Shown piece by piece: positions 39,252 to 42,762 of a stretch of 64,000 nucleotides of DNA. The DNA is from Bacteroidales bacterium (GTDB lineage: Bacteria; Bacteroidota; Bacteroidia; Bacteroidales; UBA932): the NCBI GenBank assembly GCA_017620335.1, contig JAFZQO010000044.1:38130-102129 (forward strand). Direction: 5' to 3'. A program made the translations under genes and the position numbers. The notes under the pieces are model-generated. The model was not told the DNA's origin. It made no database searches and worked only from the letters and a program-made list of their open reading frames with translations. The stretch's first letter is position 1. Each line of letters begins with the position of its first letter.

Positions 39252-39314
39252 GACTTGATGGTTGTTTGTCAAGTTTTGAAAAAACGTTTCCGAATATGTC
39301 AAGTTTTCGAAAAA
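39252..39314 (+). promoter_or_regulatory. Putative operator: direct repeats upstream of the HTH-Gmd gene
   Basis: TGTCAAGTTTTGAAAAAA at 39267-39284 and TGTCAAGTTTTCGAAAAAG at 39297-39315 are spaced exactly 30 bp. An inverted half, ACTTGA at 39252-39257, faces TCAAGT in the first copy. The second copy ends 8 bp before the -7 box, overlapping the -33 region, so a bound protein would block transcription. The HTH domain of the downstream enzyme is the obvious candidate; this is inference. Confidence 0.6.
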
Positions 39315-39321
39315 GAATAGC

Positions 39322-39329
39322 TAAATTTA
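39322..39329 (+). promoter_or_regulatory. Promoter -7 box of the HTH-Gmd/fcl operon
   Basis: TAAATTTA, one mismatch to TAnnTTTG, 24 bp before the ATG at 39354. Confidence 0.5.
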
Positions 39330-39353
39330 CGGCGTGATTTTAATCAAAAAGCA

Positions 39354-40649
39354 ATGGATAACGCAACGGTTATAGCAAAAATCAAGGATGCGCTGAAGCG
39401 TAAGGGCATCAGTCAGCGTGAACTGGCTACAAGGATGGGCAAGGACGAGACAGTCGTGAGCCGCTGGCTTTCGGGCCGCACGGGCATTTCTCAGGCAAGT
39501 CTCGATGCCATAGAGGAGGCATTGGGAGAGAAACTTGACAAGTCTGGCGTCAAGTCAAAGGTCAAGGTTGCACTTATAACAGGCATTACCGGCCAGGACG
39601 GAAGCTTCCTGGCGGAGTTCCTGCTCGAGAAGGGCTACGAGGTGCACGGCATCATGCGCCGCTCCTCCTCGTTCAACACCGCCCGCATCGAGCACCTCTA
39701 CCTGGACGAGTGGGTGCGCGACATGAAGCAGAAGCGCACCATCAACCTGCACTACGCCGACATGACCGACTCCAGCTCTCTGGTGCGCGTCATCCAGCAG
39801 GTGAAGCCCGACGAGATTTACAACCTAGCGGCGCAGAGCCATGTCAAGGTGTCTTTCGACTGCCCTGAATATACCGCAGAGGCTGATGCCGTCGGCACGC
39901 TCCGCCTTCTCGAGGCCGTCCGTATCCTCGGCATGGAGAAGAAGTGCCGCATTTACCAGGCTTCCACTTCCGAACTGTACGGCAAGGTGCAGGAGGTCCC
40001 GCAGAGGGAGACCACTCCGTTCTATCCCCGCAGCCCATACGGCGTGGCGAAGCAGTACGGTTTCTGGATAGTCAAGAACTACCGCGAGGCCTACGGCATG
40101 TTCGCGGTCAACGGCATACTCTTCAACCACGAGTCCGAGCGCAGGGGAGAGACCTTCGTCACCCGCAAGATCACCATCGCCGCATCGCGCATAGCCCAGG
40201 GCATGCAGGACAAGCTGTACCTCGGAAACCTCAACTCCCTGCGCGACTGGGGTTACGCTAAGGACTATGTCGAATGCATGTGGCTGATGCTCCAGCACGA
40301 AACCCCCGAGGACTTCGTAATCGCCACGGGGCAGTACCATACCGTGCGCGAGTTCTGCACTCTGGCCTTCCGCGAGGTCGGCATCGACCTCGTCTGGGAA
40401 GGCACCGGCGTGAACGAGCGCGGCATCGACGTCAGGACGGGCAAGTCCCTGGTCGAGGTCGATCCGAAGTACTTCCGCCCCACGGAAGTGGACCAGCTGC
40501 TGGGTGACCCGACGAAAGCCAAGAGCCTCCTCGGATGGAATCCCCAGAAGACTTCCTTCGAGGAGCTCGTCAGGCTGATGGTCCGTCACGACATGAAATT
40601 CGTCAAGAAACTCAAGGTCAAGGCTGAAATAGACAATCTCTCGATATGA
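39354..40649 (+). CDS. gmd: GDP-mannose 4,6-dehydratase with an N-terminal XRE-type helix-turn-helix domain
   Basis: 431 residues. Residues about 5-60 are an XRE/Cro-type HTH ([35 protein letters not shown]). A short basic linker ([10 protein letters not shown]) leads into a full Gmd: [19 protein letters not shown] (NADP loop, about 76), [25 protein letters not shown], the TSELYGKV region and catalytic SPYGVAK (about 227-233). No start codon exists at the normal Gmd N-terminus, so the fusion is continuous in frame. The enzyme makes GDP-4-keto-6-deoxymannose; the HTH suggests it also binds DNA. It overlaps fcl by 4 bp. I know of no described HTH-Gmd protein. Confidence 0.93.
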
Positions 40650-41590
40650 TGGAAAAGGATTCGAAAATCTATGTCGCCGGGCACCGCGGCATGGTCGGCA
40701 GCGCGATAGTGCGCGAGCTCCAGCGTCAGGGTTATACCAATATAGTCACCCGGACGCACAGGGAGCTGGACCTCTGCCGCCAGGAGGCAGTCGAGGCCTT
40801 CTTCGAGGCGGAAAAGCCTGAGTACGTGTTCCTTGCAGCGGCAAAGGTGGGCGGCATCGTCGCCAACCAGTCCGCCCTCGCGGACTTCATGTACGACAAT
40901 ATGATACTCGAGATGAACGTTATCCATTCGGCCTGGAAGAACGGCTGCCGCAAGCTCGAGTTCCTGGGTTCCAGTTGCATCTATCCGCGCATGGCCCCCC
41001 AGCCGATGAAGGAGGACTGCCTGCTTACCGGAGCGCTGGAGAAGACTAACGAGGCGTATGCGCTCGCGAAGATCAGCGGCCTGAAATACTGCGAGTTCCT
41101 GAACCGTCAGTACGGTACCGACTACATCAGCGTGATGCCGACCAACCTCTACGGCCCCAACGACAATTATCACCCGGAGCATTCGCACGTGCTGCCGGCC
41201 CTGATCCGCCGCTTCCATGAAGCCAAGGTGGCCGGTGCGCCGTATGTCGTATGCTGGGGTGACGGCTCCCCGTTGAGGGAGTTCCTCTATGTCGATGACC
41301 TTGCGAACCTCTGCGTATTCCTGATGAACCATTACAGCGGTAACGAGACGGTCAACGCCGGTACTGGCAAGGAACTGACCATCAAGGAATTGACGGAACT
41401 TGTGGCGAAGGTCGTCGGCTATGGCGGGGAGATCCGCTGGGACACTTCGCGTCCCAACGGCACGCCCCGCAAGCTCCTCGACGTCTCCAAGGCCGCTGCG
41501 CTCGGCTGGACCTATAGGACTGAGCTTGAGGACGGCATCCGCCTTGCCTACGAGGACTTTTTGAACAACCCCTTGAGGGCGGAAAGATGA
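40646..41590 (+). CDS. fcl: GDP-L-fucose synthase
   Basis: 314 residues, SDR fold. It has the NADP loop [18 protein letters not shown], the conserved [12 protein letters not shown], the catalytic Ser in LGSSCIYPR and YxxxK in EAYALAKI, and the GWGDGSP-like [17 protein letters not shown]. It epimerises and reduces GDP-4-keto-6-deoxymannose to GDP-L-fucose. The first ATG overlaps the gmd stop; a second ATG follows at once. It completes the GDP-fucose pathway with the upstream enzyme, for use in capsule or surface glycoprotein fucosylation. Confidence 0.95.
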
Positions 41591-42762
41591 CAAAGAAAGT
41601 ATTTGTTTCGGGTTGTTACGACTTGCTGCACAGCGGGCACGTGGAGTTCTTCCGCCAGGCGGCGCAGTACGGCGACCTGTATGTCGGCATAGGCTCCGAC
41701 AAAACCATACTCGGGTACAAGGGCCACAAAACCATCTACTCCGAGCAGGAACGCCTCTTCATGGTGAAAAGCATCCGTTATGTCAAGGACGCCTTCATCA
41801 ACCAGGGCTCGGGAATACTGGATTTCCTTCCCACGTTGGACATCGTTAAGCCGGACATCCTGGTGGTGAACTCCGACGGGGGCAGCGAGGCCAAGCGCCG
41901 CGTCTGCGAGGAGCGCGGCATGGAGTACATCGTACTCGACCGCGTCCCTCAGCCAGGCCTGCAGGCCCGCTCCAGCACCGAGCTCAAGAAGGTTGAGAGC
42001 CGGATTCCCACGCGCTTGGATCTAGCCGGAACCTGGATAGACCAGCCTTACGTGAGTTGTTTCCATCCAGGATGGGCCCTGACTATAAGCCTGGAACCGA
42101 ACTTCGAGGTCAGGGAGCGTTGCGGGCTTAGCACTTCCACCCGCAACATCATCAGGCGCATCTGGCCCTACCAGCTGCCGAACATGGACCCCGAGACGCT
42201 GGCACGCCTGGTCTTCTGCTTCGAGAACAGCCCGGAGAGGGACGACGGCATCGTCAGCGGGGCGCAGGATGCCATCGGCATCTGCGTGCCCGGGCTGGCC
42301 CGGCATTATTACGACAACCATTTCTGGCCCGAGCGCATCGAGACTTGCGAGGACGAGAAAGTACTCTCCTGGCTGGAGTCGCACCTGTGCATGATACCGA
42401 TGGAACCGCGTCCCCAAGGCTGCTCCGTGGTGGAGGGAAAGGACATCACAGAGGTAAAGGTCAAGGCCCTCGCGGACGCCGCTGACCGCTGCTGGGATGC
42501 CATAATGGCCCTTGATTATGAGGGATTTGCGAACGCGTATCTGGATTCTTTCAACGCCCAGGTGGCGATGTTCCCGGCGATGGTGCAAGGGAGTGTCCAA
42601 AGCTATATCGACAGGTATTCGGCGCTGCCGGAGGTCCGGGCGTGGAAGATGCCCGGAGCGGGCGGCGGCGGCTACCTGGCCTGCGTCGTGGACGACGCGC
42701 CAGGCTTCGCCGCCGCGCACCCCGGCACAATTCTTCTGAAAATCCGCCGGCCGGGTATGTAG
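41587..42762 (+). CDS. Nucleotidyltransferase-GHMP kinase-like fusion protein
   Basis: 391 residues. Residues about 1-135 are a HIGH-superfamily nucleotidyltransferase: [21 protein letters not shown], with HSGH as the catalytic motif, and a TagD/RfaE-like [20 protein letters not shown]. Residues about 140-391 resemble a GHMP kinase: [16 protein letters not shown] at the start and the C-terminal [14 protein letters not shown]. The middle Gly-Ser ATP loop is weak (GLSTSTRN), so kinase activity is uncertain. It overlaps fcl (ATGA). It could activate a sugar phosphate with a nucleotide, perhaps in fucose or heptose metabolism. It is not the Fkp type, whose N-terminus differs. Confidence 0.75.

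Follow-up and report, generated by a model that had tools for sequence, protein, structure and literature searches.

Trigger enzymes such as PutA, NadR and BirA join a metabolic enzyme and a DNA-binding domain in one chain, with sites at their own operons. Here, we describe a gene in which an XRE-type DNA-binding domain (HTH) is fused to GDP-mannose 4,6-dehydratase (Gmd), the first enzyme on the way to GDP-fucose, located in a 64,000-nucleotide stretch of a Bacteroidales genome (the whole stretch analysed is called the window). HTH-Gmd is like these trigger enzymes in its single-chain build and has candidate sites at its own operon; it differs in that its enzyme and its HTH are unrelated to theirs and, unlike theirs, its HTH clade is common to three enzyme types.

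Regulators are thought to arise from enzymes that gain DNA-binding domains, and according to PMC3602430 the experiments on this are few and the published case is one rebuilt in the laboratory. As described there, the regulator BzdR has an XRE-type N-terminal HTH, a linker and an enzyme-derived domain, three operator regions lie at its promoter, and the natural protein is without kinase activity. A synthetic HTH-shikimate kinase chimera, Q1, served as both kinase and repressor in vitro, where shikimate relieved the repression; in vivo, catalysis prevented the response (PMC3602430). HTH-Gmd has the same order of XRE-type HTH, linker and enzyme-derived domain, but its C-terminal domain is Gmd and not one related to shikimate kinase, so it is no member of the BzdR subfamily. 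The linker is only about 8 residues long in the window's protein, unlike that of BzdR, and the Gmd motifs are intact in the product of an apparently sole Gmd gene, in contrast to the kinase-inactive natural BzdR. HTH-Gmd resembles a natural intermediate with candidate operators, one that would work much as a trigger enzyme does. The natural set offers an enzyme that is intact and apparently present in a single copy, sister fusions to other enzymes, candidate operators and a specificity swap (TGTCAAG versus TGTTAAG); if the reading given below is true, it would be a natural counterpart of the synthetic BzdR missing link. It also points to a compact feedback loop by which uncultured gut and rumen bacteria could control their fucose-containing surface glycans.

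Plain Bacteroidales Gmd proteins are up to 86% identical to the Gmd domain of the window's protein and their genes usually lie beside fcl (93/104 loci), as here, but they carry neither an HTH nor an upstream TGTCAAG pair (0/102 loci). The fused HTH has the HTH_3 fold in common with small XRE proteins and HigA-type antitoxins, and the profile matches among solved structures include HigA, C.BclI and 3bs3; unlike HigA, the fusion at the window locus has no toxin partner beside it, its neighbours being a LysR-type regulator and fcl. The earlier note on this DNA knew of no described HTH-Gmd fusion, and searches of open-licence PMC papers listed none. Thirteen solved Gmd relatives found by sequence all begin at query residue 57 or later, so none of them has the HTH. 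For an HTH-LicC fusion, a possible precedent, a literature search found no report.

The fused gene, its operon and its range

Table 1. Features of the HTH-Gmd locus (positions in the window).
Feature	Position	Strand	Basis
HTH-Gmd fusion gene, 431 aa	39354..40649	+	ATG 39354, stop 40649; ORF and profile matches
XRE/HTH_3 domain, residues 10-62, type 1 recognition stretch KDETVVSRW	39381..39539	+	Pfam; HTH tree
Gmd domain, residues 71-431, active-site and NADP motifs intact	39564..40646	+	TIGR01472; motif check
fcl, GDP-L-fucose synthase, second gene	40646..41590	+	480 bits, slightly below curated cut-off of 500
Third gene, cytidylyltransferase-like N-part and GHMP-kinase-like C-part	41587..42762	+	PF01467; GHMP mostly by eye
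Distal upstream site TGTCAAG (-87)	39267..39273	+	motif match
Proximal upstream site TGTCAAG (-57), 30 bp from distal	39297..39303	+	motif match
In-gene site CTTGACAAG, end of HTH coding part	39534..39542	.	motif match; synonymous resampling
Imperfect -7 box TAAATTTA (consensus TAnnTTTG)	39322..39329	+	aligned promoters

The frame of the fused gene (Table 1) translates without internal stops. Its product matches Pfam HTH_3 at 45.1 bits (cut-off 23), Pfam GDP_Man_Dehyd (PF16363 family test; residues 74-409, E 2.5e-153) and NCBIfam gmd TIGR01472 (residues 71-416, 580.9 bits against a curated cut-off of 415). A motif check finds the NADP loop and the Thr/Glu/Tyr/Lys motifs, SPYGVAK included, whose residues we take to be catalytic, and the Gmd motifs are intact in 20/20 HTH-Gmd proteins. 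These matches bear out the earlier reading of a single unbroken frame encoding an HTH and a complete Gmd. The accompanying statement that no alternative start exists stands for the normal Gmd start itself (AAG TCA AAG GTC AAG GTT GCA), where there is no in-frame ATG, GTG or TTG; it fails a little upstream, where an in-frame TTG (codon 57, 39522-39524) lies 14 residues ahead of the Gmd core. This codon is CTT in a relative whose protein is 93% identical to the window's (L032, assembly 'uncultured Bacteroidales bacterium isolate RUG470'), so the TTG is no conserved start.

The fcl gene and the third gene each overlap the preceding gene by 4 bases. In the product of the third gene the N-terminal part matches PF01467 (E 3e-13) and the C-terminal part has a weak similarity to the fucokinase portion of PRK13412 (E 1e-5). 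This gene was considered and rejected as a fusion-specific partner, its GHMP half being also found near 9/104 plain gmd loci.

Searches for the HTH plus Gmd architecture and its range, as the earlier note proposed, yield 20 HTH-Gmd loci in two genera, together with 3 HTH-IspD-like and 3 HTH-Gfo/Idh loci (26 fused loci in all; L148 is the same as L032 and is counted once). Among the 108 Gmd loci listed, four have the HTH in frame, namely L001 (the window), L014, L032 and L033, with one locus (L029) unscorable because its sequence is truncated ahead of the start. The HTH model gives 20 matches at E<=1e-16 in 400 genomes of the window's genus (perhaps Cryptobacteroides), drawn from a larger group, and all are fusions. 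The partner is Gmd in 17, Gfo/Idh in two (L161 and L162, by Pfam) and an IspD-like enzyme in L160. Across 393 genomes of the order there are 26 matches at E<=1e-13, with a fusion only in the window's own genome; the other 25 lie in frames of 91-178 aa. The genus of L033 (37 genomes) has 6 HTH matches, with six fused loci in five of the matching genomes (HTH-Gmd L033, L219 and L222; HTH-IspD L217 and L218; HTH-Gfo L220) and a stand-alone HTH in the sixth. Since this genus holds 37 genomes and 400 were drawn from that of the window, the two genera are different. A 272-aa frame in G412 was rejected as a fusion, as by eye it reads as an HTH of the stand-alone type.

Candidate operators and their proposed use

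The fused HTHs were divided by recognition stretch into type 1 (ETxV) and type 2 (xE[VI]), the types being set after the data were seen. TGTCAAG/CTTGACA lies within 160 bp upstream of 19/19 type-1 HTH-Gmd loci and 2/102 plain gmd loci, a comparison in which the controls come mostly from other genera and the loci are related, so that site counts are not independent. A site pair, defined as two sites 29-33 bp apart with one exact and the other carrying at most one mismatch, occurs at a spacing of 30-32 bp in 17/19 type-1 loci versus none of the plain gmd controls; L033 and L222 are without the regular pair. The aligned sites read approximately TTTGTCAAGTT, which is near the palindrome cTTGwCAAg.

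A strict match to the promoter consensus TAnnTTTG, as given in PMC7366714, stands 21-24 bp past the proximal site in 16/19 type-1 loci (a count made without a control), and the position of this box puts the proximal site at the -33 region. The box test fails for L033, L222 and the window, where the -7 box is imperfect. The box ends about 5 bases ahead of the ATG in L117-L119, L149-L151 and L153-L159, a position that hints at a very short leader in most second-lineage relatives.

The in-gene site is present in 17/17 loci tested, whereas 5000 resamplings of synonymous codons give 0.73 loci on average and never more than 4; L219 and L222 also have it. Its bases encode KLDK, KLVK or LDT in one reading frame and NLTK or NLTN in another, which argues that the DNA and not the peptide is conserved. 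In the first Gmd lineage the null chance of the site is 0.11-0.14 per gene, and given this and the kinship of the genes, it is chiefly the second lineage and the change of frame that give the in-gene evidence its weight.

We consider it probable that the protein has Gmd activity and, in addition, binds DNA to regulate the operon that encodes it, made up of gmd, fcl and the third gene. Known Gmd relatives are tetramers, and Gmd oligomers would display paired HTHs that could grip the two near-palindromic sites, which lie on the same side of the DNA at a distance of about three helical turns. With the proximal site at the -33 region, binding there would most likely repress, and a bound proximal site that blocks this region would amount to negative autoregulation. 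Looping might give access to the third site, inside the stretch that encodes the HTH, and occupancy of the Gmd active site by GDP-mannose, GDP-fucose or NADP(H) may tune the regulation. We infer DNA binding, repression, looping and ligand control, and for ligand control the in vivo behaviour of Q1 (PMC3602430) is a caution. The earlier note had proposed that the protein senses its substrate or NADP state and controls the GDP-fucose genes, and had named 39252-39330 as the DNA on which to test binding; that region does hold both TGTCAAG sites, and their layout tracks the HTH across species, which lends good sequence support to control of the gene's own upstream region. Control of the GDP-fucose genes would follow, at the level of sequence, from the site positions.

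It is unlikely that the HTH binds these sites in order to activate, or to work a loop switch, with an enzyme part that only oligomerises and senses nothing. The spacing of 30-32 bp and the third site would suit oligomers without ligand, and the sequence gives no sign of sensing, but the proximal site sits where binding usually blocks.

One count speaks against the preferred reading, a Gmd that represses its own operon: TGTCAAG-N12-30-TGTCAAG is not enriched in the 2.76 Mb genome, occurring at 2 places (this locus and C25:10095) against 1 for the reversed control, and a large regulon was dropped on these counts. Of the 22 occurrences of TGTCAAGTT in the genome (control 9), this locus has 3 and the gene of the neighbouring regulator has one; a close pair at C51:91130/91254 was rejected as sites because by eye it reads as protein-coding. 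Across the whole window there are 25 matches to CTTGWCAAG when one mismatch is allowed, versus 10.4 expected in shuffles, an excess that perhaps reflects Leu-Asp/Val-Lys codons.

Gene starts, recognition types and origin

The native Gmd ATG is retained in 11/20 HTH-Gmd genes, so a separate Gmd could be made too. This would suit a two-product scheme, in which an internal start or cleavage gives two proteins, a regulator with the HTH and a free-standing Gmd, and the fusion is not the working form. We regard that scheme as very unlikely, since the native ATG is lost in 9/20 genes, the window's included (among these, a GTG lies nearby in L033 and L152), and no HTH-only stop is seen in the fused frames. 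Besides the fused gene, no Gmd was found in the window's genome (54 contigs), and in 18/18 genomes tested nothing but the fused copy matches Gmd at E<=1e-60; many of these genomes are incomplete (G807 and G811 were left out, and G791 is the same record as G229).

Type-2 fused HTHs (n=7) have TGTCAAG/CTTGACA upstream in 0/7 cases. TGTTAAG/CTTAACA is upstream of 6/7 of them, versus 1/102 plain gmd and 1/19 type-1 loci; the type-2 locus L220 has neither site, and L162 has a single far site at -158. The Gmd of L163 is sister to that of L158 (support 99/95), yet the two loci differ in HTH and sites, both being type 2 in L163 and type 1 in L158, which argues that the site follows the HTH and not the enzyme; type-2 HTHs keep TGTTAAG/CTTAACA even with Gmd as the enzyme part. 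Such a change of site with the recognition stretch, even between sister Gmds, and the missing sites at plain gmd genes both weigh against the idea, less probable again than the two-product scheme, that another factor uses the sites and the HTH has some other role, for example in protein contacts. That idea draws on the stand-alone HTH relatives, which for the most part are without upstream sites (TTGTCAAG at 3/63 and TTGTTAAG at 0/63 loci within 400 bp upstream, counted without a chance level); with these counts, an ancestral operator in the stand-alone relatives was rejected as well.

Neither a frameshift nor a stop, which the earlier note had named as evidence that would overturn the fusion, is found between HTH and Gmd. 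HTH-codon dN/dS is 0.04-0.28 in 11/11 pairs computed, and the HTH is under purifying selection. An assembly artefact or the chance read-through of a dying HTH gene, to which the resemblance of many genomes to metagenome assemblies of limited completeness might point, is effectively refuted, as recurrence in 20 distinct genomes of two genera, the coding selection on the HTH and the sole Gmd copy make a frameshift or assembly error very unlikely.

The HTH that would give Gmd its regulatory function sits on two Gmd lineages. One Gmd tree (107 rows, 4 fused) has 2 changes, and a second (38 rows, 18 fused) has 3; a single change is found in 0% of 200 bootstrap trees for the first and 0% of bootstrap trees for the second, with L219 and L222 absent from both trees. 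The second lineage also takes in two plain genes, L015 and L016, where the surrounding support is weak; in L015 the gmd, which has no HTH, begins at the stop codon of an aspartokinase-like gene. Among the type-1 second-lineage loci in the genus, 9/13 have a related upstream gene, then a promoter stretch, then the HTH; in the flanking DNA available, this upstream gene had no match at the other 4/13 loci or at L163. From these layouts the HTH seems to have been gained or lost jointly with its promoter. In the HTH tree the 26 fused HTHs form one clade apart from 25 stand-alone XRE relatives (support 100/99), in an alignment of 51 rows that has few columns (63) and whose rows were found using models trained on fused HTHs.

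Sister fusions with IspD-like and Gfo/Idh enzymes

The HTH clade heads at least three unrelated enzymes, which we read as enzymes of surface-glycan precursors. With our confidence evenly divided, we propose that this clade of gut Bacteroidales is a portable head on at least three glycan-precursor enzymes, that it would bring recognition-matched operators with it, and that the set preserves stages in the passage from enzyme to regulator. These stages would run from the sole-copy HTH-Gmd enzymes to an HTH-IspD protein with a decayed nucleotide-binding stretch.

GxRxGxxxPKQ is an important nucleotide-binding stretch of IspD-like enzymes. It is lost in the HTH-IspD-like protein L160 (genome G447; its gene row, L207, is G447:C76, 3737-5370), whose gene overlaps an intact IspD-like gene (L207:4657-5370) by 4 bases. 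We take the G447 fusion for a later stage, at which an enzyme appears to have become a regulator.

The HTH-Gfo gene in G390 heads a gene row with PEP mutase, TPP enzyme and class V aminotransferase genes. At L208 (4331-11001) and L209 (4850-8182), HTH-Gfo/Idh is followed by permease-like and nucleotidyltransferase-like genes, and the L208 row also has PEP mutase, TPP enzyme and aminotransferase genes. These gene rows likely serve phosphonate decoration. Gfo enzymes have a lysine in an EKP motif, and its loss was tried as a sign of decay in HTH-Gfo; the lysine is missing in 3/3 fused proteins and also in 3/3 non-fused relatives translated (out of 7 found), so its loss is not fusion-specific and the sign was rejected. 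In the non-fused Gfo/Idh relatives L223, L228 and L229 a cytidylyltransferase-like N-terminal part, recognised by eye, replaces the HTH. The window's own genome contains a Gfo/Idh relative as well (L224), matched at G000:C51:212930-213859 within a 453-aa frame.
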